Origin: Algibacter pacificus
GTDB taxonomy: Bacteria > Bacteroidota > Bacteroidia > Flavobacteriales > Flavobacteriaceae
Reading direction: 5' to 3'
DNA: 64,000 bases
NCBI RefSeq assembly: GCF_008033385.1
Contig: NZ_VOGY01000001.1
Location: forward strand, 496,001 to 560,000
Below, in pieces: positions 12,841 through 32,051 of the stretch (its first letter is position 1; the number at the start of each line of letters is the position of its first letter). The notes under the pieces are model-generated. The model saw nothing but the letters and a program-made list of their open reading frames with translations. It did not search any database and was not told the origin of the DNA. The position numbers and the translations under genes were made by a program.

Positions 12841-15800
12841 ATGCGAACCGTTACACTTAAGCATTTACTTTTTTTAGCCATTACCTTGTTTTCAGGTTTA
12901 GCTAAAGCTCAAGTCACTTTTTTAGAAAACACAAAGATTACCGATCAGGCCTTTTATTTTTGGAAACCAGATGATGCAACACCATATCATTATGGTGCCA
13001 GTATAAACCCACACGGTAATTGTATGAAAGTATCCAATGGTTATGTTTTTTATACTTGGTACCGCGGTGGTTGGAGCGATCGTACCTTAATGGTCTCACG
13101 AAAGAAAATTGGAGAAGGGGCTTGGGTACACGTTGAACTGCCGGCTAAACTAAGTTTGGTTGGTGGTAAAGGCGATACCCATTTAACCACCAATATTGGC
13201 ATTTGTCCTATAGATGGAACCGTACATTTGATGTTTGATCATCATAATGAAGATTTAAATTATATCAGGTCAAATAAAAATATAGCTTTTGGTCCAGATG
13301 AAGATTTTACTGCCGAGAATTTTTTACCTCAACAAAACTATTTAATTCCAGGAAAGAAAGTAACTGGAGTTACGTACCCAGATTTATTCAATAACGACCT
13401 CGGCGAAATGTATTTTGAACGTCGATTAGGTGCTGCAGTTGGAGGCGATATAGTGATGACTTACTATAACGGAAATACTTGGTCTAGCGAAGTAACTATT
13501 ATAAAAGGTAGGGGGCAAGAAGTAACACAAGGAGAGCGACACTTTGCTTATGGAAGCGCATATTTTATTAATGGGAAATTTTATTATGCCTATTCGCCTA
13601 GGTGGGCAGAGTCTCCTACAAGGTTAAATGAAGGTGTTTATGTGATGGAGTTGGGGGCTAGGATGGATAATAAAGCAACCACCTTAGATGGTAAAAGTTA
13701 TGATTTGCCAATTATAGATCACGCACCTTTTTTTATAGCCGATCCGCGAAGTATTCCAGATAATGAAGGCTGGGCAGGAGGACCACAATTAGCAATTTCT
13801 CCAAAAAACGATATCTACACCTATATTAAACCTAAAGGTACCGAGCCTTATAACTATTTACAAAAATCTGGAGATGTTCAATTTGAGGAAGATAGAAATA
13901 AAGGAGCGCTAGGTATATTCTATGGAAACCGTATGTATAAGTTTAATGTATCTAGTGGTAATTTTGTTGTAACAAGTGCTTTGGCAGGCACCTATACTTG
14001 GCGAGAGGATTTTAGAAAACCTATAGGGCTTAACGTTAAAAAAAGCATAACAGTTATGAATGATGGTATTATTGCCATTGTATTTAGTGAGGTGAAAAAC
14101 AGCGCTACGGTACCAGTGCATTGTTTTGTTTTTAAGTTAGATAAGGAAGAGTATACCGCACAAACTATCAGTTTTGATGCCCTAACAGAAAAAACGGAAG
14201 GCGATTCTAATTTTGAATTAAATGCAACGGCAAGTTCAGGACTACCCGTTTCTTATTCATCATCGGATACTCATATTGCTCGTATCATTGATGGTAATAA
14301 AGTACAAATTATGGGAGTAGGTGCTTGCGAAATTATTGCTAGCCAAATAGGAGATAGTAATTATGAAAAGGCTCCAGATGTATCACAAACCTTGGTGATT
14401 AAGGCGAACACCTCTAAATTAAATCAAACCATCGATTTTACCTTAGCAGCAACCAATCATGTTTGGGGTAGCCCAGATCAAACCTTGAGTGGCATAGCAA
14501 GTTCTGGGTTACCCGTACAGTTTGAAAGTTCCAACACCGATGTAGCCGTAATTTTTGATGGAAACAAATTACAAGTAAAGCAAGCTGGTGAGACTACCAT
14601 AAATGCTTTGCAATATGGAGATGATACCTATAATGCTGCACCTATTCTGGGTTATAAACTTACGGTTCCTCTTCGTCAACAAGACATTGTGTTTGAAGAT
14701 ATTCCAGACGTAACTTCGGGAGATCCAGCGTTTAATCTAGTGGCAACTAGTAATAATTCAGAAGCTAATTTTAGATTCCTTTGTCCTAATAACCAAGTAG
14801 CAATAGTGTGGAGTAATCAAGTAAGGCATGTTTTAGGTGCAGGCAGCGCTACTATAACTGTTTCAGATAGTGGGAACAATTATTATTCATCGGCACAAGT
14901 TTCAAAAACAATTACGGTTAAACCTAAAACACATAAGCTTCCAACAGAAATAGAAGCAGAGCATTATACAACTAAAAATGGGGTAAATGTAACACGTTGG
15001 AGTAATTCAATATTTTATTTAAATGCATGGAACGTCAATGATTTTGCAGAATATACTATTGATGTGCCTGAAGATGGATTATATGATGTAGAAATTATTG
15101 CGGCTTCTCCTGGAGCAACAAAAAAGCTTAAAATTATTAAAGGAGACACAAAACTTAAATCTGTAGATTTAAAAACAACACCAAGTTTAACCAGATTTTT
15201 AGGAACAAAAACCACTATTTCACTTCAAAAAGGAGTGCAAAAAATTAAAATTGTAGCAGAAGTGGGGGGATTTAATTTTGACCGTATGAAAATTACTAAA
15301 GGACAGGATAATGATGATGTAGGGGGGGATGCAGATGGCGTTTATCAAATTGTTAATGTTTCAACAGGAAAGTATCTTGGTACTAATTCAAGAGGTGGTC
15401 AGCCTGTAATAATGCGTGATACCGGAGATGGATCGGATAGAAAATGGGAATTTGTTAAAACCAATGTAGGTGGTATAGATTACTATAACATAGATAGTAA
15501 AGATAATGGTATATTACGGGCTACAGGTAGCGGGTTTGCCCAAGGAGCCTTTCTAGTAGTAAGCACAGGAAAAGAATCTCCAGCTGGCGATACCGATAAA
15601 ATATGGACCGTACATTACAATAGAGAAGATGATACTTTTAGGTTTGAAGCTAAAAATAATGGTACATTTTTGTATCATGACGAGGATGGTAAATGCTATA
15701 ATAGAAATGTCAATGAAACTGATACCAGAAGTAAATGGCGAATAGTAGGAACAGGAGGACCGTTATTAAGTAATAAAAAACAAAACTTTAATAAGCCTTT

Positions 15801-16038
15801 TTTAAGCATTCATCCTAATCCTACTGTAGATAAATTTACTATACATTTTAATAATATAATAGGTAAAAAGAATATAGAAATTTATAATCTTTTAGGTAAA
15901 CAGGTGTATAAAAAAATGTCATTTAAAAATGTTTTAGAAATACAAAACCAGTATAGTTTTAAGGCGGGTATGTATCTTATTAAAGTGAGTTCTTATAATA
16001 GTACAACAACTTTCTATGCTAAGTTAATGGTAAAATAA
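12841..16038 (+). CDS. PL25-type ulvan lyase with Ig-like, CBM6, ricin-like and T9SS domains
   Basis: 1065 residues with a signal peptide (ending AKAQ). Residues about 25-430 form a BNR_4-type seven-bladed propeller. GDTHLTTNIGI and LMFDHHN place His114 and His134; with Tyr179 (VTYP) and Arg195 (ERR) they keep exactly the spacing I recall for the catalytic His/His/Tyr/Arg of the PL25 lyase PLSV_3936 (123, 143, 188, 204), so PL25 fits better than PL24. Three Ig-like repeats follow (about 440-700), then a CBM6-like module (EIEAEHYTTKNG, about 702-820), a ricin-like module (about 835-980) and a type IX sorting domain (SIHPNPTVDKFTIHF to the end). It should cleave rhamnose-3-sulfate-uronic acid bonds by beta-elimination outside the cell. 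Fragments would then go to the GH105. Confidence 0.88.
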   Translation: MRTVTLKHLLFLAITLFSGLAKAQVTFLENTKITDQAFYFWKPDDATPYHYGASINPHGNCMKVSNGYVFYTWYRGGWSDRTLMVSRKKIGEGAWVHVELPAKLSLVGGKGDTHLTTNIGICPIDGTVHLMFDHHNEDLNYIRSNKNIAFGPDEDFTAENFLPQQNYLIPGKKVTGVTYPDLFNNDLGEMYFERRLGAAVGGDIVMTYYNGNTWSSEVTIIKGRGQEVTQGERHFAYGSAYFINGKFYYAYSPRWAESPTRLNEGVYVMELGARMDNKATTLDGKSYDLPIIDHAPFFIADPRSIPDNEGWAGGPQLAISPKNDIYTYIKPKGTEPYNYLQKSGDVQFEEDRNKGALGIFYGNRMYKFNVSSGNFVVTSALAGTYTWREDFRKPIGLNVKKSITVMNDGIIAIVFSEVKNSATVPVHCFVFKLDKEEYTAQTISFDALTEKTEGDSNFELNATASSGLPVSYSSSDTHIARIIDGNKVQIMGVGACEIIASQIGDSNYEKAPDVSQTLVIKANTSKLNQTIDFTLAATNHVWGSPDQTLSGIASSGLPVQFESSNTDVAVIFDGNKLQVKQAGETTINALQYGDDTYNAAPILGYKLTVPLRQQDIVFEDIPDVTSGDPAFNLVATSNNSEANFRFLCPNNQVAIVWSNQVRHVLGAGSATITVSDSGNNYYSSAQVSKTITVKPKTHKLPTEIEAEHYTTKNGVNVTRWSNSIFYLNAWNVNDFAEYTIDVPEDGLYDVEIIAASPGATKKLKIIKGDTKLKSVDLKTTPSLTRFLGTKTTISLQKGVQKIKIVAEVGGFNFDRMKITKGQDNDDVGGDADGVYQIVNVSTGKYLGTNSRGGQPVIMRDTGDGSDRKWEFVKTNVGGIDYYNIDSKDNGILRATGSGFAQGAFLVVSTGKESPAGDTDKIWTVHYNREDDTFRFEAKNNGTFLYHDEDGKCYNRNVNETDTRSKWRIVGTGGPLLSNKKQNFNKPFLSIHPNPTVDKFTIHFNNIIGKKNIEIYNLLGKQVYKKMSFKNVLEIQNQYSFKAGMYLIKVSSYNSTTTFYAKLMVK

Positions 16039-16372: not shown

Positions 16373-17914
16373 ATGAAAAAAATTACCTCAAAATCCTTAA
16401 TCTTATTTGCTTTTACACTCTTTTCTTTTGTATTATCGGGGCAAACAGTAGCGCCCGATGAGGATACTGGTACTTATACCACTTGTAATGATGATGGTGC
16501 AAATGCAACTAGAACATCAAATGATTTACCATCCGCTGCTAATGTAGGAACTATTGATGACCGAAGTTGCTATGCAAATTACAAAGAAAGTAATGTTTAT
16601 GGAAAAACTTGGGGGATTTATAATATTACTCATAATTCTAATAATCAAGATGCGGCAAACACTTTGCAGCCAAGGATAGAGCGTTCTTTATCTAGATCTC
16701 AAGCTACAGGAGTGGGGAGTTACGCTAGGTTTACAGGAACGGTTAGAATACTAGAGGTTGGTGTAACTAGTAGTGATGGTAGCGATGGAACCTATATCAT
16801 GCAGGCAAAAGGAAAACACACCGGTGAAGGTGGTTCTAACGACCCCGCTATTTGTTTGTTTCTAGCAAAAGCTGTATATGGCCAGGATACTAATGGTAAC
16901 CCTGTACAAGTATCTTTTAATATTTTTAGAGAACAAATTAACTATAGAGGTGGATCTGGAGCGGCAGGAAGAGATATTGTTTTCTTAACTAATATTGGAA
17001 AAAATGTTGAAACCGATATTGAGCTCGAGGTAGGTTTTAGGGAAGACCCTAGCGATGCAACAAAAAAAATACATTATGCTGATGCCGTTATTGGTAGTGA
17101 AACTTTTAATTTTACCATTCCAGAGCCCGAAAGAGGGGTTGAGTCTGGTATTAGATATGGTGCATACCGTGTTAAAGGTGGTAGAGCTCAAATAAGATGG
17201 GCTAATACAACATACACCAAGGAAGAAGTAGAGAATTCTGGAGATTTACCAGTAGGCATTTGTAGATTAAAAAATGTAGCAACTGGAAAATATTTAAGGT
17301 CTTCAGGGTCTAGTATTGTAGCTAGTGATTCAGGAGAAGGTTCAGATAAAGAGTGGCAATTTGTAAAAGCCGAAGTATCTGGTTTTAATTATTATAATAT
17401 TGATAGTGAAGTAAAAGGAATCATACGATTTAAAGGGGGGAGCTCTGCTCCCGAGTTAGTTAGTACATCTTTTGGTGCACCTAATCAGGCAGTAGATAAA
17501 ATATGGACTATTATTGATAATGGAGACGGAACTTATAGTTTTGAAACTAAAAACAATAAAAGATATTTATATCATGCCGAAGATAATACTATGATACACT
17601 CCTCTAATACTGATGATAGAAGTAAGTGGATTTTAGAATCTACAACATTAAGTATTAACGATAAAGATTTGGAAACTCCTACAGTAAAAATATATCCAAA
17701 TCCAGCAAAAGATAGTTTTACTTTGGCATTTGAAAATCAAAATACGGTTAAGGTTGAAATTTATGATATTACAGGGAAAATAGTTTATCAAAATTCAACC
17801 AATAAAGGTGTTTTAGAAGTTGAAGTAAGTCATAAATTTACTTCTGGTTTATATTTGGTTAAAACTTTGGCAGAGAATAATAAAGTATATCACACTAAAT
17901 TGGTTATAAAATAA
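16373..17914 (+). CDS. PL28 ulvan lyase with ricin-like/ulvan-binding module and T9SS sorting domain
   Basis: 513 residues with a signal peptide (ending VLSGQ). Residues about 25-285 match the PL28 ulvan lyase pattern as I know it from Nonlabens and Formosa ([10 protein letters not shown] near the mature N-terminus, then [20 protein letters not shown]). Residues about 295-430 form a module homologous to the ricin-like module of the upstream PL25 ([31 protein letters not shown]). In a Formosa PL28 enzyme a module in this place binds ulvan. The last 75 residues are a type IX sorting domain ([20 protein letters not shown]). The enzyme is expected to act endolytically on ulvan at the cell surface or outside. 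The family assignment rests on recall of the N-terminal sequence pattern, without a database search. Confidence 0.85.
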
Positions 17915-18074: not shown

Positions 18075-19991
18075 ATGAAAAGACGCAACTTTATTCAAAT
18101 TTCAGCTTTAGCGGGTGTTGGTTTATCATTACCCATGTCAGGAATATTAAATGCATGTACTAGTCATCCAGAACATTCTTTAGAATTTAAAAACCTTATA
18201 ACAGGGTTGTTAAAAGACTGGAGCGATGGTATGTTAAAAGTGCAAATTAATAATCCTTCAAACCTAGAAGAACATGGTGCTTTAGGCTGTCCGTCTTGCT
18301 CACATATTCACGGACGCTGTATGGATGCGGTATATCCGTTTTTATATATGGCAGACAAAACAGGAGATGATAAATACGTAGAAGGTGCTAAATTAGTCAT
18401 GACTTGGGCAGAAAATAACGTCTCTCAAGAAAATGGCGCTTGGACGGTAATTAAAAACCCAAAATCTTGGAAAGGAATAACGATTTTTGGAGCTATTGCA
18501 TTGGCGGAAGCCCTGCATTACCATGGTCATGTTTTAGACGAAATAACTCGCAAAGCTTGGACAAATCGTTTAGAGAAAGCGGGGCAATACATTTACGATA
18601 CATTCACAATAGATTTTACCAATATCAATTATCCAGGAACAGCAGTCTATGGATTGAATTTGATAGGAAATGTGTTAGGAAGAGAAGATTTTAAAGCCAA
18701 GAGTAAAAAATTAGCTTCAGAAGTGAAAGTATATTTTACAGAAAATGAAGGTTTGCTTTTTGGCGAATGTAAAAAGAGTTCAAGTAAGTTAAGTGAAAAA
18801 GGTTTGCATGGTGTAGATTTAGGGTATAATGTAGAAGAAACTCTGAATAGTTTGGTAATGTATTCCATTAAAGAAAAAGATGAAGAATTATTACAAATCT
18901 TAACCAAATCTTTAAATAGTCATTTAGAATTTATGCTACCAGACGGTGCTTGGGATAACAGTTGGGGAAACCGCATGTACAAATGGAGCTACTGGGGAAG
19001 TAGAACCTGCGATGGTAGTCAACCAGCATTTGGAATGATGGCGAATATCAATCCTGCTTTTGGAACAGCAGCAGTAAAAAACACAGAATTATTGCAAAGA
19101 TGTACAGCAGATGGCTTAATTCATGGAGGTCCTGGTTTTATAGAAGCAGGCATTCCGCCTTGTGTACATCATACCTTTACACATGCCAAACCACTAGCTG
19201 CATTGTTAGATCATTGGGAGCATTTACCAGAAATAAATGCCAATACCAGTTTACCAAGAACCACAGCAGATGGTGTAAAGCACTTTAAAGATTTAGATGT
19301 GTATCTTTTTGCACGAGGCGATTGGAGAGGCACAGTAAGTGCTTACGATGCAGAATATCATTATAAATACGATTTTCGTCAAGCTTCAGGAGGCGCTTTA
19401 GGCGTTTTATTTCACAATAAAGTAGGTTTATTGTGTGCTGCAAGTATGGCAGAATATCATTTAGTTGAAAAGAATAATCAACAGCCTCAACCAGGTAAAG
19501 ATATTTGTTTAACGCCACGTATTGAAACTTTTAAAGACGATGTTTGGTATACAAATTTATACGATTTACCAGCTACAGTAAAAAGCAAAGATGAAAATGA
19601 AACTATAGAGTTGTTGGCCGACGTAAAACTTAAAAATGTAGATAGAGAGGACGTTACAGAAACTGCGTCTGTATTTAATATAGCTTACATCTGTTCTACC
19701 AATAAAACTGAAATTAAAGTAGCCACAAAACAAGATGTTAAAGCTCAAACAGCTTTTGTATTACCCATTATTTCGCCTTCCAGTGAAGTGGTTGCAAATC
19801 TTAGTGAAAACGAAATTACCATCCAAAAACCTGAAGGGTTAGTTACTATAAAAGCTAGTGGGCCTATAAAGATTAAGGAGATTGAAGGAAAACGTACTTT
19901 TAATATGGTGCCAGGGGTTGAAGCCTTGCCTTTAGAAGTGTTTTTTGAAGAAGAGAGTAAAACGATAGAGTTATCTATAACAGTAAGTTAA
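18075..19991 (+). CDS. Tat-exported lipoprotein, alpha-toroid plus beta-sandwich (ulvan lyase or oligosaccharide dehydratase-like)
   Basis: 638 residues. The leader has a twin-arginine motif (KRRNFIQ) and a lipobox (LNAC), so it is probably folded before export and lipid-anchored. Residues about 40-420 are helical with toroid-like repeats; landmarks are GCPSCSHIHGRCMDA, GVDLGYNVEETLNSL and a tail HHTFTHAKPLAALLDHW. Residues about 430-638 are beta-rich. This (alpha/alpha)-toroid plus beta-sheet layout is shared by several lyase families and by the ulvan oligosaccharide dehydratase of Formosa agariphila (P29_PDnc), which is encoded beside a PL28. The neighbour here is also PL28, so a dehydratase or the PL40-type ulvan lyase are the two best guesses; I cannot decide between them. 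The gene has its own operator and terminator. Confidence 0.6.
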   Translation: MKRRNFIQISALAGVGLSLPMSGILNACTSHPEHSLEFKNLITGLLKDWSDGMLKVQINNPSNLEEHGALGCPSCSHIHGRCMDAVYPFLYMADKTGDDKYVEGAKLVMTWAENNVSQENGAWTVIKNPKSWKGITIFGAIALAEALHYHGHVLDEITRKAWTNRLEKAGQYIYDTFTIDFTNINYPGTAVYGLNLIGNVLGREDFKAKSKKLASEVKVYFTENEGLLFGECKKSSSKLSEKGLHGVDLGYNVEETLNSLVMYSIKEKDEELLQILTKSLNSHLEFMLPDGAWDNSWGNRMYKWSYWGSRTCDGSQPAFGMMANINPAFGTAAVKNTELLQRCTADGLIHGGPGFIEAGIPPCVHHTFTHAKPLAALLDHWEHLPEINANTSLPRTTADGVKHFKDLDVYLFARGDWRGTVSAYDAEYHYKYDFRQASGGALGVLFHNKVGLLCAASMAEYHLVEKNNQQPQPGKDICLTPRIETFKDDVWYTNLYDLPATVKSKDENETIELLADVKLKNVDREDVTETASVFNIAYICSTNKTEIKVATKQDVKAQTAFVLPIISPSSEVVANLSENEITIQKPEGLVTIKASGPIKIKEIEGKRTFNMVPGVEALPLEVFFEEESKTIELSITVS

Positions 19992-24446: not shown

Positions 24447-26915
24447 ATGAAACTTAAAATTCTTTTAATTCAAACATTTTTTTTAATTCAGATTTTAAGC
24501 GTTAAGGGGCAAACCCAAAATAACACTGTTAATTGGGACGACGCTAAGTGGATTGGCTATACCAAAGACAATCGTCCAGAAAAATGGGCGGCAAGAGATT
24601 TTGTTAGAAATCAACCTCCAATGGATATTAATACTTGGCAGCCAACGGAAGACGAACTAAAAGCGGTTCGACGTATAGCACATCCATCAGTTTTACTAAG
24701 AAAATCTTTTTCAGTAACAAAAGAAATAGAATCTGCAGAAATTGCTATTTGTGGTTTAGGGCTTTATGAATTATATCTTAATGAGAATAAAGTGGGAGAC
24801 CGAGTGCTTGATCCAGCTCAAACCTCTTATAATAAACATGCTTTTTTTGTACGTCATAATGTGACTAAGCTTCTTAAAGAAAATAATGGATTGGGAATTA
24901 TGTTGGGTAACGGATTTTATGGTCAAAATATAGCCTTTTGGCCAGGGCTTGCTTACGGAAAGCCACGCGCAATTATGGTACTAGATATTAGGTATAAAGA
25001 CGGCACATCAAAACAAATTACAACAGATGAAAGCTGGAAAGCTGAAAACAGTCCTATCCTTTTTGATAACCTATATCATGGAGAAACTTATGATGCTAGA
25101 AAAGAAGAAGAAGGTTGGTCTCGTTTTGCTTTTAATGATAATTCTTGGGGTGCAGTAGAATTGATGAAAGCGCCAACAACCAACTTAATAGAGCAAGAAT
25201 TAGAGCCTATGAAAAAGGTTAGAGAAATTACACCAGTGGCAATTCTTCCTGCTGAAAAAGGGTGGATCATTGATATGGGACAAAACATAACAGGTTGGTT
25301 GCAAATACAGGTTGAAGAAAAAGAAGGGACAGAAGTGAAAATGCGTTTTTCAGAGCATTTAATGCCAGATAAACAAAACATTGACCCAGCATCAACAGGT
25401 ATTCATGTTACAGGAAACACCCAAACAGATATCTATATTGCTAAAGGTGATGGCGTTGAAACTTGGGAGCCGCGTTTTACGTATCATGGTTTTCAATATG
25501 TGCAAATAGAAGGATTGAAAAATAAACCAACAATAGATCAATTTAAAGGTTGGTTAGTAAGAACTGATGTTGAACGCATAGGAACGTTTGAATGTTCAGA
25601 TGAACAAATAAATAAATTTTACGAGGTGTCTATGTTGACCATAGAAGATAATATTCAAGGCTTGTTAAGTGATTGTCCACACAGAGAACGTTGTGCATGG
25701 ATGGGCGATGCTTATGTTGTTGCCGAAGCGGCAAGTTATAATTTTGATTTACAGCGTTTATGGCAAAAAACAACGAGAGACATGCAAACCGTTCTTGGAG
25801 TTTCTAAAGCACATTTTAAAGATCCGTTTCCTTATGATAAAAGAGCACCAGCCAATGTTTCTGTTGGAAAGCGTTTAAACCTTCAGGCAAGACCAGATTG
25901 GGGTGCTGCTACAGTAATGATTCCCTACTTTTCTTATGTGTATTATGGAGATACAAGCATAGTAAAAAAATCTTGGGATATGATGCAAGGTTGGATGGCT
26001 TATTTAGATGAAAAAGTACAAGAAAAAGGTATTATAAATGGCGGCTATGGCGACTGGTGTCCTCCAGGAGGAAATCCAAATATGGATACACCACCAGCAT
26101 TAACCTCTACAGCACTGTACTATCAATCTTTGGTTGCCATGCAAAAAATGGCTGTTTTATTACATAAAGACAAAGCTGCTGTTAAATATGGAGAAAAAGC
26201 AACAGTTGTTAAAAAGGCATTTAACGAAAGGTTTTTTAGTGAGGAATCAAATTCTTATGGTTCTCAAACCGGAAATGCTTTTGCTTTACATCTTGATTTA
26301 GTTGATGAAAATAAAAAACAATTGGTTGCAGATAATTTGTCAAATCTAATAATGAAAGACAATCAAGGTCATTTTACCACCGGTATTTTTGGTCATCGTC
26401 CTTTGTATACCATACTTAATGATTTTGGACATCATAAAGTAACCAAACATTTATGGGACATTACAGATTACCCTAGTTTAGGGTTTGTTACCGAAGAGCA
26501 CAATTTATCAACTTGGCCAGAGCTAATTGCTAATTGGGATAAAAGTAAAAGGTATTACAGAAACTCCTTCAATCACCCAATGAATAGCGGGTTTGCTGCT
26601 AGTTTTCACGAAAGTTTAGGAGGGATAAGACCCGATGAAAATAACCCAGGATTTCAAAAATTTTACTTAAAGCCAACTTTTTTAGAAGGTTTAGAATGGT
26701 GCGAGGTGTCTTATAAATCGCCACAAGGAAAAATAGAAAGCAATTGGAAAAAGAACGAAGGTAAAATAACGTGGTCTGTTACAATTCCAGAAAATTCTTC
26801 TGCTTTTGTTGAATTGCCAATGTATGCATCAAAACAAATCAAAGTAAATAACAAAAGCGTTAAACATAATATGTTTGATTTGACCTCAGGTAAATATATA
26901 ATAACTATTAAATAA
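24447..26915 (+). CDS. GH78 family alpha-L-rhamnosidase (without N-terminal Ig domain)
   Basis: 822 residues with a signal peptide (ending SVKGQ). It starts directly with the jelly-roll domain (WDDAKWIGY) and lacks the Ig-like N-domain of its neighbours. The rhamnosidase N-domain (GLYELYLNENKVGDRVLDPA) leads to the barrel with DCPHRERCAWMGD: Asp409, Glu414 (general acid) and Asp421 match the D/E/D spacing of Bacillus RhaB. The predicted base is Glu692 in TWPEL, and a beta C-domain closes the protein. It lies 29 bases after the first GH78 and 8 bases before the GH59 gene. The differences in domain order and active-site motif from the other GH78 genes suggest a distinct linkage or position in the glycan. 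Confidence 0.9.
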   Translation: MKLKILLIQTFFLIQILSVKGQTQNNTVNWDDAKWIGYTKDNRPEKWAARDFVRNQPPMDINTWQPTEDELKAVRRIAHPSVLLRKSFSVTKEIESAEIAICGLGLYELYLNENKVGDRVLDPAQTSYNKHAFFVRHNVTKLLKENNGLGIMLGNGFYGQNIAFWPGLAYGKPRAIMVLDIRYKDGTSKQITTDESWKAENSPILFDNLYHGETYDARKEEEGWSRFAFNDNSWGAVELMKAPTTNLIEQELEPMKKVREITPVAILPAEKGWIIDMGQNITGWLQIQVEEKEGTEVKMRFSEHLMPDKQNIDPASTGIHVTGNTQTDIYIAKGDGVETWEPRFTYHGFQYVQIEGLKNKPTIDQFKGWLVRTDVERIGTFECSDEQINKFYEVSMLTIEDNIQGLLSDCPHRERCAWMGDAYVVAEAASYNFDLQRLWQKTTRDMQTVLGVSKAHFKDPFPYDKRAPANVSVGKRLNLQARPDWGAATVMIPYFSYVYYGDTSIVKKSWDMMQGWMAYLDEKVQEKGIINGGYGDWCPPGGNPNMDTPPALTSTALYYQSLVAMQKMAVLLHKDKAAVKYGEKATVVKKAFNERFFSEESNSYGSQTGNAFALHLDLVDENKKQLVADNLSNLIMKDNQGHFTTGIFGHRPLYTILNDFGHHKVTKHLWDITDYPSLGFVTEEHNLSTWPELIANWDKSKRYYRNSFNHPMNSGFAASFHESLGGIRPDENNPGFQKFYLKPTFLEGLEWCEVSYKSPQGKIESNWKKNEGKITWSVTIPENSSAFVELPMYASKQIKVNNKSVKHNMFDLTSGKYIITIK

Positions 26916-26923
26916 TTGAAAAT

Positions 26924-29254
26924 ATGACAAAGCCAACAAATTATTACCAGAATTCGATTTTATTTTGCCTTTTGTTTTTTTGTTCTCTAACATATGGTAT
27001 TGATGTTAAGGATTTAAAATGTAATGGCCAAGTAAATCCATCTGGTATAGTAGATACAAATCCCACTTTTAGTTGGGCATATATTGGAAATGAAAAGAGC
27101 CCTATACAAGGAGGGTATCGTATTATGATGGCTACATCAATTGAAAAACTTAAATACCCAGATATTTGGGATACAGGACCAACCAGTACTTCAGAAACTG
27201 GTCCATTTAAATATTGTGGAGCACCTCTCAAATCTGGTCAGAGAATTTACTGGAAGGTAATGGTTTGGGGTAATAATCGTGGAGTAGCTCATAGCGAACC
27301 TTCTTGGTTCGAGATGGGTGAAATTCAAAATCCAGAAAAACCATTCCAACCACATGTATTCACAAAGCTCAATGGGGTTGTACAAATCATCTTAGATAAA
27401 AATGACTCAGGTCGGGTTTTCGAAGGTATTGGAGGGGTAAGTGCAGGTGCTTCTTCTGATTTATTGTATGATTATGAAGATCCAGTTCGAGGTCAAATAC
27501 TCGACCTTTTGTTCAAACCTAAATTTGGTGCTGGTTTTCAGCATCTAAAAGTTGAAATGGGAGGAGGCGAAAACTCTACTTGCGGATCAGAACCTTCTCA
27601 TGCGATTACACGAGAGGAGTTAAAAAAACCAGTATCTCGCGGTTATGAATTTTGGTTGATGAAAGAGGCTAAAAATAGAAATTCGGAAGTAATTCTTGAA
27701 TATTTACCTTGGAGTTTTCCGGCATATTTAAAACCTAACATTTTTACTCAGGAATCAGCAGCATATTTTGTTAGCTTTCTAGATGTAGCTAAAAAACAAT
27801 GGGGTTTAGATATTGACTGGGTAGCTGCTGCAGAGAATGAGAATTATACAAATCGTGATTGGTTAGTGAATCAAGTGCGTCCATTATTGAACAGTAGGGG
27901 TTATCAGAATGTGAAAATTCAAGGACCTGATGACAATAGTGGCGACTGGAAAATATTCGACGAATTTGAAAATGATAAAGCTTTTGATACTATTGTTGAG
28001 GCTGTAGGCTACCACTATGTAACAGGAAGGGAGTTCACCGAAAATATGGTAGATGGTCGTGGTAGACCAACAACTGAAAAAGCAAAAAACACAGGTAAAC
28101 CATTATGGGCTAGTGAAGATTGGAGCTGGACAGGAAAAGACTGGGGAGGCGCTGGAGCGTTAAATTTAGCACGTGTTTATAATAAGTTTTACATCCGTGA
28201 CCGAATTACTAAAACATTAATTTGGGCACCAATAGGCTCAATATACAAATCTGTAACTTGGGATAAAGCAGGTGCCATGAAAGCCAATAGTCCGTGGAGT
28301 GGTTATTATGAAGTTTGGCCAACTATTTGGGCAACAGCGCATACAACGCAGTTTGCCGAACCTCTAAATTGGCAGTATCTAAATAGTGCATGTGGTCTTT
28401 TTAAAAGCAGTACTTACAAAGGAAGTTGTGTTACATTGAAGGAAAAGAATAGTACTAATTGGAGTATGATTATTTGTACTGAAAAGCAAGAAGACATTGA
28501 GGTTAAAATAGGAGAAGGATTCTCTTTAGATACGATTAGTGTTTGGAAGTCTAACGAAAATGAACAATTTGTAAAGCAAGAAAATATTGTTCCGAAAGAT
28601 GGAATGATAAAAGTTTCATTAGATGCGCAAAGTATTTACTCTTTAACCACGACTTCTGGTCAGCAAAAAGGGACTTATGAAATTCCTAAAGAAGAACCAT
28701 TTCCTTTTCCATATTATGAAGACTACGAAGATCGAAAATTAGGAGATTTACCTAAATACCATTCAGATCAAACAGGGAGTTTTGAAATTGCATTAAAAGA
28801 AGATGGTTCTCAATGTTTAAAGCAAATTGTACCTGAACAAGGTTACGATTGGATGCGAGTATATCGACGTTCTAATATAAAACCAAATACCTTAGTAGGT
28901 GATGTTAATTGGAAAAATTATACATGTAGCGTAGATGTGTTTATTGAAGGTGGTAATGTAGAATTAGGAGGTCGTGTACAGGGGAGTTATTTAAAAGGCT
29001 ATCGTTTTCAGGTAGCAAAGAATGGACATTGGAAACTGATTTTTGATAAGACTTTAATTAAGGAAGGTAGTATTGCCAGTTTTGATGGTAATCAATGGCA
29101 TAATCTTAAACTTAAATTTCAAAATGAAAATATAGAAGCCTTTGTTGATGGAGATTTGTTATTGACAGTATCACATAAGCAGGCTTCAGGTTATACGATG
29201 TTATCAAGTTCGTACGATGAAAACCTTTTTGATAATTTGAAGATTACGGACTAG
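26924..29254 (+). CDS. GH59 (galactocerebrosidase-like) glycosidase fused to a rhamnosidase-type N-terminal domain
   Basis: 776 residues with a signal peptide (ending SLTYG). Residues about 25-130 are the Ig-like domain normally found at the N-terminus of GH78 rhamnosidases (NPSGIVDTNPTFSW, SGQRIYWKVMVWG). From about residue 145 the sequence follows animal GALC closely: GRVFEGIGGVSAG, LDLLFKPKFGAGFQHLKVE, RGYEFWLMKEAKNRN, LPWSFPAYL, WASEDWSW, WSGYYEV and WATAHTTQF. The acid/base is Glu306 (ENEN, aligned with the Asn-Glu pair of GALC) and the nucleophile is Glu398 (SED). A beta-sandwich and a lectin-like C-domain (about 610-776) complete the GH59 layout. GH59 enzymes are retaining beta-galactosidases. 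A beta-galactose in the target glycan is therefore suggested, possibly next to rhamnose. Confidence 0.85.
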   Translation: MTKPTNYYQNSILFCLLFFCSLTYGIDVKDLKCNGQVNPSGIVDTNPTFSWAYIGNEKSPIQGGYRIMMATSIEKLKYPDIWDTGPTSTSETGPFKYCGAPLKSGQRIYWKVMVWGNNRGVAHSEPSWFEMGEIQNPEKPFQPHVFTKLNGVVQIILDKNDSGRVFEGIGGVSAGASSDLLYDYEDPVRGQILDLLFKPKFGAGFQHLKVEMGGGENSTCGSEPSHAITREELKKPVSRGYEFWLMKEAKNRNSEVILEYLPWSFPAYLKPNIFTQESAAYFVSFLDVAKKQWGLDIDWVAAAENENYTNRDWLVNQVRPLLNSRGYQNVKIQGPDDNSGDWKIFDEFENDKAFDTIVEAVGYHYVTGREFTENMVDGRGRPTTEKAKNTGKPLWASEDWSWTGKDWGGAGALNLARVYNKFYIRDRITKTLIWAPIGSIYKSVTWDKAGAMKANSPWSGYYEVWPTIWATAHTTQFAEPLNWQYLNSACGLFKSSTYKGSCVTLKEKNSTNWSMIICTEKQEDIEVKIGEGFSLDTISVWKSNENEQFVKQENIVPKDGMIKVSLDAQSIYSLTTTSGQQKGTYEIPKEEPFPFPYYEDYEDRKLGDLPKYHSDQTGSFEIALKEDGSQCLKQIVPEQGYDWMRVYRRSNIKPNTLVGDVNWKNYTCSVDVFIEGGNVELGGRVQGSYLKGYRFQVAKNGHWKLIFDKTLIKEGSIASFDGNQWHNLKLKFQNENIEAFVDGDLLLTVSHKQASGYTMLSSSYDENLFDNLKITD

Positions 29255-29288: not shown

Positions 29289-32051
29289 ATGAAAAAGCAT
29301 ATCAAAATTGTAGTTCTTACAATATTATTGAATATTAGTGTGCAAAACATATCTGCACAAATACAACCTTACGATTTAAAATTAGAATATCGCGAAAACC
29401 CAGAAGGTGTAGATATGACAAAACCACGTTTTTTCTGGAAATTAAAATCAGAAGAGATGGGGCAATTTCAAAAAGCCTATCAAATTATTGTCGCTTCATC
29501 TCAAGAAAACATAAAAAATAATATTGGCAACGTTTTTAATTCTAAAAAAGTAAGAAGTTCAGATAATATTCAAATAATTTACAAAGGACAATCTTTAAAA
29601 TCAGCATCAGAATATTATTGGAAAGTCAGAGTTTGGGACAAGAACAACAAGGTGTCTAATTGGAGTGAAATAGCTACTTTTTCAACAGGCTTGTTTGAAG
29701 AAAAAGATTGGAAAGGTGCACAGTGGATTGCTTGGCGGAATCAAGACGAATGGGCAAATGAGTGGTGGCGAAAAAAGGAAGTTGAATCTAAAGCCATCGA
29801 ATTTCAATTACCAAGTTATTTTGGAGCCCATTTAAATATGTTTGAACGATATCATTTCTTTGATGATAAAAAACATGATGCAGCACCACTTTTACGTAAA
29901 GGATTTGACCTACAAAAGAAGGTTAAAAGTGCCAAAGCATATATTAGTGGAATTGGGTATTATGAGTTATATATCAATGGTAAAAAAATTGGAAATTCTG
30001 TTTTAGATCCAGGTTGGACAGATTATCGAAAAACAATTTTATATGCTACACACGATATTACTAACGAAGTAAAAGACGGTGCAAACATGGCAGGTGTCAT
30101 GCTAGGTCGTGGTTTTTATGGAATGATGGCTTACGATCATTGGGGATTTCATAACAAAAATGGTTGGATTGGTCAGCCAAAATTAATATGTCGTATTAAA
30201 GTAACCTATGAAGACGGAACCACAAAAGATATTGTTAGCGATTTAAGCTGGAAAGTTAAAGGCGGCCCTGTAGTGTATGATGGACCACATATGGGCGAAA
30301 TTTATGACGCTACAAAAGAAATTAATGGTTGGAGTGAAGTAGGCTTAGATGATTCAAGTTGGAATACAGTAAACTCAGCACCACATCCAGGAGGAGAACT
30401 CGTTTCTCAAATGAACGAACCTATTCGTGTTACCAAAACATTTCATCCCATAGCTACAAAAAATTCTAGTAGAGGCCAATGGTTTGATGTAGGTACCAAT
30501 ATGTCTGGTTGGGTACGTTTACGTATCAAAAATGCTAAAAAGGGGCAGCGTATTACTATTTATTTTGGAGAAAATGAAGATCCAATTACGGTAAGTCAAC
30601 CAGGAGGACTTCAGCAAATGGCCTACGTTTGTAAAGGTGGTGGTGTAGAATATGCAGAGTGTCGCTTTTCATATAAAGCTTTTCGCTATATCAAAGTAAA
30701 AAGTTTTAGAAAACTAAAGTTTAACTTAGAGGATGTTGAGGTAAAATATGTGCATTCTGATGTACCAAGAGTGGGGTATTTTGAATCCTCTGACAAAACC
30801 GTAAACGCGGTACACGACATCTGTAGAAAATCCTTGATTTTTAATCTGCACAGTATCCCTACAGATTGTCCGCATCGTGAAAAAAATGGATGGTTAGGAG
30901 ATGCAGTTACAGGAATGGAATTTGGTATGGCGAATTACGATCTAGCTGCATTAATGACAAAGTTTACGAGAGATATTTTTGATGGTCAAGATAAATTTGG
31001 TGGAATTCCTGCCATAGTTCCTGCTAATAATTATGGTTCCGGAAAATCTAGTTTATGGTCATCTGCAGGAGTTCATATTCCTTGGTATATGTACCAATAT
31101 TATAACGATACACGTTTGTTTGATTTGTATTGGGATAAAATGATGCTTTTTATAAAACGCTCTTGGGAGTTCAATAATATTCCCGAAAAAGACGGTATGT
31201 TTAAAGAACGCTTTAATGATTGGGTTACGCCTTATGATGCCACATATAAAGGAGGTGGTAAGCCAGGAGGGAATGAAGTGATTGCGTCAATGAATTTTTA
31301 TCTAGTATTAAAACGTATGGCTTACATGGCTGATAAATTAGGAAAAAAGAAAGATAAAAAGCGCTTAGAACAACAGGTAGAACGTATTCACAAAGGAATT
31401 CAAAAATGGGCTTTTAATGAAGAAAAAGTAGAGTATGAAGGGCTAAAATCGTTTAATGAGTTTTTGCCAGTGGTAAATATTTTGGCATTAAATTACGGCA
31501 TTGTTCCAGAAAAATATAGAGAACAGTTAGAAAAAAAGGTAGTAAATAATATTGTAAAAGATAAAGACTATCATTTATGGGGAGGCATCTTTACTGTACA
31601 TTCCGCATACGAATACTTACCCAAAAATGGACATGCAGATATAATGCATAAAGTAGTTGTTAACGAAGAATGGCCATCTTTTGGGTGGATGATAAAAAAT
31701 GGTGCAACAACGTTACCAGAAGGCTATAAATTCACGTCTTCTAATATGCATCATTTTATGGGTGCTGTAGATAATTTCTTTTACAGACACATGGTGGGGA
31801 TTAATGTAGATGAATCCAATCCTGGATTTCAAAACATCATTTTAAAGCCAAACTTTATTAAAGCAATGAATTTTGCTAAAGCAAGCTATAATTCTATTCA
31901 CGGAGAAATAAAAGCGGAATGGAAAAAAGTTTCAAATAATGTTTACGAATATAAAATTGAAGTCCCTGTAAATTGTAGCGCACAAGTTATTTTACCCAAC
32001 GCAAAGTATTATGTTAAATCAGGAAAACACAGTTATCGCGTTGCGTTATAA
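29289..32051 (+). CDS. GH78 family alpha-L-rhamnosidase
   Basis: 920 residues with a signal peptide (ending NISAQ). The Ig-like N-domain (LEYRENPEGVDMTKPRFFW) is followed by a long insert in the jelly-roll region (about 140-200, rich in Trp and His: WANEWWRKKEVE, HLNMFERYHFF) that the neighbouring paralogues lack. The rhamnosidase N-domain motif GYYELYINGKKIGNSVLDPG is clear. In the barrel DCPHREKNGWLGD gives Asp526, Glu531 and Asp538, and LPEGY gives the predicted base Glu811. Gaps are 34 bases upstream and 25 downstream. The insert may form an extra wall of the active site for a branched or sulfated substrate (inference). Confidence 0.9.
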   Translation: MKKHIKIVVLTILLNISVQNISAQIQPYDLKLEYRENPEGVDMTKPRFFWKLKSEEMGQFQKAYQIIVASSQENIKNNIGNVFNSKKVRSSDNIQIIYKGQSLKSASEYYWKVRVWDKNNKVSNWSEIATFSTGLFEEKDWKGAQWIAWRNQDEWANEWWRKKEVESKAIEFQLPSYFGAHLNMFERYHFFDDKKHDAAPLLRKGFDLQKKVKSAKAYISGIGYYELYINGKKIGNSVLDPGWTDYRKTILYATHDITNEVKDGANMAGVMLGRGFYGMMAYDHWGFHNKNGWIGQPKLICRIKVTYEDGTTKDIVSDLSWKVKGGPVVYDGPHMGEIYDATKEINGWSEVGLDDSSWNTVNSAPHPGGELVSQMNEPIRVTKTFHPIATKNSSRGQWFDVGTNMSGWVRLRIKNAKKGQRITIYFGENEDPITVSQPGGLQQMAYVCKGGGVEYAECRFSYKAFRYIKVKSFRKLKFNLEDVEVKYVHSDVPRVGYFESSDKTVNAVHDICRKSLIFNLHSIPTDCPHREKNGWLGDAVTGMEFGMANYDLAALMTKFTRDIFDGQDKFGGIPAIVPANNYGSGKSSLWSSAGVHIPWYMYQYYNDTRLFDLYWDKMMLFIKRSWEFNNIPEKDGMFKERFNDWVTPYDATYKGGGKPGGNEVIASMNFYLVLKRMAYMADKLGKKKDKKRLEQQVERIHKGIQKWAFNEEKVEYEGLKSFNEFLPVVNILALNYGIVPEKYREQLEKKVVNNIVKDKDYHLWGGIFTVHSAYEYLPKNGHADIMHKVVVNEEWPSFGWMIKNGATTLPEGYKFTSSNMHHFMGAVDNFFYRHMVGINVDESNPGFQNIILKPNFIKAMNFAKASYNSIHGEIKAEWKKVSNNVYEYKIEVPVNCSAQVILPNAKYYVKSGKHSYRVAL

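Follow-up and report, generated by a model that had tools for sequence, protein, structure and literature searches.

A galactocerebrosidase-like GH59 protein with a GH78-type N-terminal domain in an ulvan-degradation locus of Algibacter pacificus

Why is a relative of galactocerebrosidase (GALC), the human Krabbe-disease enzyme, encoded among the rhamnosidase genes of a flavobacterium, and why does it begin with a domain of the kind found in those rhamnosidases? The question is raised by a gene of Algibacter pacificus located in the 64,000-nucleotide stretch of contig NZ_VOGY01000001.1 that was analysed here (positions 496,001 to 560,000; referred to as the window). The initial annotation had described the product as a GH59 enzyme carrying the Ig-like domain of GH78 rhamnosidases, and had taken this domain to be borrowed from its rhamnosidase neighbours. 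We use the term fused GH59 for this protein and its orthologues with the same domain order. The coordinates are collected in Table 1.

Both the GH59 core and the Ig-like domain match their families far beyond chance. The N-terminal domain is assigned by Pfam to Ig_Rha78A_N (E=6e-23, 81.5 bits vs. a curated cut-off of 27.4), and a PDB sequence search matches residues 30-133 to the Rha78A-type rhamnosidases 3w5m and 6i60 (E 1e-10 to 1e-11), which bears out the GH78-type character proposed for it. The catalytic core is covered by the entire PF02057 profile (positions 1-294 of 294; E=4e-108, 361.6 bits vs. a cut-off of 27), and the PDB sequence search matches mouse GALC (4ccc/3zr5; residues 154-746, E about 1e-71). 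The proposed lectin-like C-domain was recovered as PF21708 (E=1e-14, 55 bits vs. a cut-off of 27). Because the six-hairpin catalytic domain of GH78 (PF17389) is absent according to Pfam, the protein is not a GH78. An assignment to GH30 is ruled out by the whole-profile GH59 match together with the lack of any GH30 match at E<0.1; two GH30 enzymes from the same genome do score as GH30 with the same profile library. Another GH59 match of this genome (C1:361098) proved to be a GH30 enzyme with a weak GH59 cross-match, and the same probably applies to most weak PF02057 matches among the 300 relatives from the family that were searched. Reading the N-terminus by eye revealed no clear lipobox, and the protein is predicted to be exported to the periplasm in soluble form.

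Table 1. Features of the fused GH59 gene and of selected neighbours (positions in the window).
Feature	Position	Strand	Evidence or remark
Second probable ulvan lyase, BNR_4 + ulvan-lyase beta-trefoil	12841..16038	+	Pfam; PDB matches Uly1, short ulvan lyase
PL28 ulvan lyase	16373..17914	+	PF22826, E=3e-120
Upstream GH78, no Ig_Rha78A_N match	24447..26915	+	Pfam
Fused GH59 ORF, Ig_Rha78A_N-GH59-lectin	26924..29254	+	ATG start, 776 aa; Pfam, PDB sequence search, 29 orthologous loci
Predicted signal peptide, residues 1-25	26924..26998	+	read by eye from sequence
N-terminal Ig-like domain, PF25788 Ig_Rha78A_N, residues 28-132	27005..27319	+	Pfam
GH59 TIM-barrel catalytic domain, residues 166-476	27419..28351	+	PF02057 Glyco_hydro_59
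Asn305-Glu306, general acid/base motif (GALC N181-E182)	27836..27841	+	alignments
Glu398, catalytic nucleophile (GALC E258)	28115..28117	+	alignments
Beta-sandwich region, residues 479-590	28358..28693	+	partial PF17387 match, below cut-off
GALC-type C-terminal lectin domain, residues 615-775	28766..29248	+	PF21708 Glyco_hydro_59_C
Downstream GH78 with its own Ig_Rha78A_N	29289..32051	+	Pfam

An AlphaFold model computed from 31 close sequences reached a mean pLDDT of 68.8 and a pTM of 0.43, with parts of the barrel below 50. Because of this poor barrel prediction, the model was left out of all considerations of residue geometry and domain packing, and the active-site geometry was borrowed from GALC; a Foldseek search with the same model, poor barrel included, ranked GALC as the top structure. 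E258 of GALC serves as nucleophile and E182 as acid/base; W135, G48, T93, S261, and R380 bind the 3-OH, 4-OH, and 6-OH of the ligand, the group at C2 is bound by N181 and E258, and the pocket is shaped by W524 of the lectin domain (PMC4445328). In two separate alignments, Glu306 corresponds to E182 and Glu398 to E258, so that the catalytic residues had been named and numbered correctly; this clan GH-A pair is kept in all aligned fused GH59 sequences. Residues of the GALC -1 subsite are also kept (T93 as T219, W135 as W263, N181 as N305, S261 as S401), and so is W524, with its counterpart Trp643 lying in the lectin domain. The same holds for GALC W291, which we take to be a -1 subsite residue and which corresponds to W434.

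The pocket is not kept throughout. R380 contacts bound ligands in GALC, and the mutation R380W inactivates the enzyme (PMC4445328, PMC5031207). It has no conserved equivalent in fused GH59 or in the other bacterial GH59 proteins that were aligned, its position in the Algibacter protein being occupied by Cys518 according to phmmer and by a gap according to MAFFT; R380 is a trait of GALC and does not define family GH59. Because this residue is needed for GALC activity and is not conserved, the specificity of fused GH59 may differ from that of GALC. The acid/base loop reads AENEN, against IWNE in GALC; it has one residue more and is devoid of Trp. A non-fused flavobacterial GH59 (L068) has a loop of the same length as fused GH59, with the motif NQNE, which supports the assignment of Glu306. 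GALC Tyr303 is replaced by Trp446, and the sequence between the two catalytic Glu residues contains a stretch specific to the clade (VTGREF..MVDGRGRPTT).

The gene is part of a long same-strand run: its start codon is found 9 bases past the stop of the upstream GH78 gene, and the next GH78 gene follows after 35 bases. In addition to the two lyases of Table 1, the locus encodes GH88/105-type, GH3, and GH2 enzymes, several GH78 and GH106 rhamnosidases, and sulfatases, in agreement with the ulvan setting that the initial annotation had assumed. Encoded in the flanks on the downstream side are RhaT, a TonB-dependent receptor, further GH2, GH106, and GH78 enzymes, and probable sulfatases. Three nearby GH78 genes (21148, 29289, 32077) code for an Ig_Rha78A_N domain, and a 1176-aa protein encoded upstream (C1:489253-492783, corresponding to L053:13253-16783) has this domain between a sulfatase and a GH78.

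Three further genes of the region are worth recording. A 638-aa protein without Pfam or PDB match (18075-19991) is encoded in the vicinity of the lyases and fused GH59; in about 12 of 29 loci a relative with 48-88% identity is likewise encoded near fused GH59, and the protein is possibly an as yet unassigned ulvan enzyme. A 169-aa ORF (C1:562796-563305; L054:2796-3305) comprises barely more than a signal peptide and Ig_Rha78A_N and is either an independent domain protein or what is left of a GH78. Close to RhaT is a gene for a sugar isomerase related to L-arabinose isomerase in its C-domain (C1:582800-584230; L055:2800-4230), which is conserved (80-90%) near fused GH59 in several genomes.

When one genome per species was scanned, the fused gene was detected at 29 further loci (L019-L047), with identities of 69-83%. 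As the scan matches exact peptide words, more distant fused relatives may exist. These loci extend to Marinilabiliaceae (L027, L047), a Bacteroidales MAG (L033), and an Opitutae MAG (L046). Viral contigs yielded no relatives, and plasmids yielded a single non-fused GH59 and no fused one. Mean pairwise identity over 29 sequences is highest in the barrel (86%), followed by the N-domain (73%) and the sandwich and lectin parts (68-70%), the signal peptide being the least conserved stretch (24%). In a core tree, obtained by a quick search and with long outgroup branches, the fused proteins form one clade (support 100, stem 2.8 changes per site).

If, within the present lineage, the N-domain had come from an adjacent GH78 gene, as the presence of the same Pfam domain in three nearby GH78 genes might suggest, it should resemble theirs. 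It shares only about 31-37% identity with the GH78 N-domains of the window, it is present in all 29 orthologous loci, and in a tree computed from only 111 columns (near-duplicate L020 left out) the GH59 N-domains form one separate clade (100/99, stem about 1 change per site), with the N-domains of the neighbouring GH78 proteins falling outside. The tree leads us to reject such recent copying, which we regard as very improbable, and with it the borrowing from rhamnosidase neighbours. The adaptation to a galactose-rhamnose motif that the initial annotation had suggested is a conjecture. Because all orthologues have the N-domain and these domains are a clade of their own, the fusion appears to be old and single: most likely it arose once, long ago, and then moved between lineages. 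The domain is absent from GALC and from all five non-fused bacterial GH59 proteins with a complete N-terminus (L049 was left out, its contig ending at this point). As in GH78, it would serve as a structural or positioning module that is neither catalytic nor rhamnose-cutting. That it might instead be a carbohydrate-binding module which targets the enzyme to rhamnose-rich chains is in our opinion unlikely. This idea could draw on the 34 of 105 positions that are invariant in 29 sequences, several of them aromatic (W51, Y78, W82, W110, W115, W128, F129), and on the occurrence of the domain both in GH78 and in a sulfatase-GH78 hybrid, but the core of an Ig-like fold would have such aromatics anyway.

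The initial annotation had also remarked that GH59 does not normally belong to the ulvan enzymes. With respect to the literature this stands: our search found no paper that links GH59 with ulvan or with a marine rhamnosidase and none on glycoside hydrolase family 59 with a bacterial galactosidase, GH59 is not mentioned in the characterised ulvan pathways of Formosa agariphila and Pseudoalteromonas (PMC8511951, PMC13050008), and the papers on GH59 and polysaccharide utilization, going by titles and abstracts, concern neither ulvan nor marine bacteria. With respect to genomes it does not. Among the 300 relatives, PL28 is present in 16 and fused GH59 in 9, all of which belong to the 16, so that more than half of the PL28-positive genomes carry it (hypergeometric 2e-13 for 9/9 vs. 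16/300, with relatedness ignored). Likewise, PL28 occurs in 27 of the 29 genomes behind L019-L047 (a sample which overlaps with the 300 in some genomes), the exceptions being L031 and L033; the PL28 match in the L046 genome is partial and weaker. No PL28 was found in the genomes of the non-fused GH59 proteins L068 (G094, the sole genome with a strong non-fused GH59 among the 300), L048, and L049. Within 10 kb of fused GH59, GH78 and sulfatase genes are each found in 21 of 29 loci, and GH106 genes in 18. Judged from this distribution, the family repeatedly accompanies ulvan degradation and is confined almost entirely to bacteria predicted to degrade ulvan. Co-occurrence with PL28 is no proof of ulvan as the substrate, because such genomes carry other green-algal loci.

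An intact copy in Seonamhaeicola aphaedonensis (L037:9944-12298) is positioned outside any polysaccharide locus, flanked by the cell division and housekeeping genes for peptide deformylase, FtsW/RodA, GldB, and DnaG; this genome has PL28.

Our preferred reading, which we hold with slightly better than even confidence, is that fused GH59 is a secreted, soluble, periplasmic retaining exo-beta-glycosidase of the ulvan degradation system, probably a beta-galactosidase. Glu398 would attack the anomeric carbon with Glu306 acting as acid/base, and the sugar released would be terminal, beta-linked, and of galacto configuration, most likely beta-D-galactose. The substrates would be oligosaccharides left by the lyases, from which minor residues of ulvan would be trimmed off, and removal of galactose would let the many GH78 and GH106 rhamnosidases proceed. 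This reading is supported by the GH59 and lectin domains, the kept catalytic pair, the single fusion origin, the gene content of the locus, and the strong linkage to ulvan lyase. Galactose is the default guess because of the family and the kept pocket. The literature searched contains no activity data for any bacterial GH59.

What speaks against a beta-galactosidase is that galactose is only a minor constituent of ulvan, being present in small amounts in that of Ulva lactuca (PMC8955879). This scarcity is one of several reasons to consider a retaining exo-glycosidase acting on a sugar other than D-galactose, e.g. a pentose of galacto configuration (alpha-L-arabinopyranoside) or, specific to ulvan, a xylose, uronic acid, or sulfated residue. 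As R380 is absent and the acid/base loop, longer and Trp-free, differs from that of GALC, the -1 and +1 sites may hold another sugar; the exchange of Tyr303 for Trp446, the clade-specific stretch, and the long clade stem in the core tree point the same way. Such a change of specificity is possible but doubtful, given that the equivalents of T93, W135, S261, W291, and W524 in the galactose pocket are all kept. Moreover, R380 is missing from other bacterial GH59 proteins too, so that its loss need not imply a new substrate. That the fused clade would form a GH59 subfamily specific to ulvan, with a novel activity other than beta-galactosidase that fills a step of ulvan breakdown to which no enzyme is assigned, and with the Ig domain shaping its substrate site, we rate as rather unlikely. 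Little probability is also given to a different polymer, a co-occurring galactose-containing one such as arabinogalactan protein or a sulfated galactan from these same algae, with the gene travelling alongside ulvan genes. The isolated copy in S. aphaedonensis and the two genomes with fused GH59 that are devoid of PL28 would fit this explanation; the GH78, GH106, and sulfatase genes adjoining most loci, and PL28 in nearly all genomes, that of S. aphaedonensis included, do not.

What sets these proteins apart as a GH59 subfamily is the Ig_Rha78A_N fusion, together with an association with ulvan degradation at the level of genomes. That a GH59 is conserved in 9 of the 16 relatives with PL28 suggests that a step or a sugar is missing from the pathway as known. 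The fusion is a one-off, stable link between two unrelated glycosidase families, and its bearers allow residues of the Krabbe-disease enzyme, R380 for example, to be set against bacterial counterparts.

Compared to known systems, fused GH59 has the TIM barrel, the catalytic Glu pair, most of the galactose pocket, and the lectin domain in common with GALC (4ccc, 3zr5). It differs from GALC in being bacterial and encoded in an ulvan locus, in its additional N-terminal domain, in the lack of an R380 equivalent, and in the acid/base loop extended by one residue. Other bacterial GH59 proteins (L048 from Methylorubrum, L089, L090, L068, L097 from Kitasatospora, and L049 from a Verrucomicrobia MAG) likewise have GH59 and lectin domains but are only 28-42% identical, and the five with a complete N-terminus do not have the Ig domain; the one from Kitasatospora (L097:5872-8328) has gained a C-terminal ricin-type lectin and is thus another accessory-domain variant. 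With the GH78 rhamnosidases that carry Ig_Rha78A_N (3w5m, 6i60, and those of the window), fused GH59 shares the Pfam family of its N-domain, which is an isolated clade, but not the catalytic domain. P36 of Formosa agariphila, a hybrid of an S1_25 sulfatase and a GH78 (PMC8511951), is similarly a multi-domain enzyme of an ulvan locus, although its catalytic domains differ from those of fused GH59. The make-up of P36 recurs in the 1176-aa protein upstream of the window, where Ig_Rha78A_N is placed between sulfatase and GH78.
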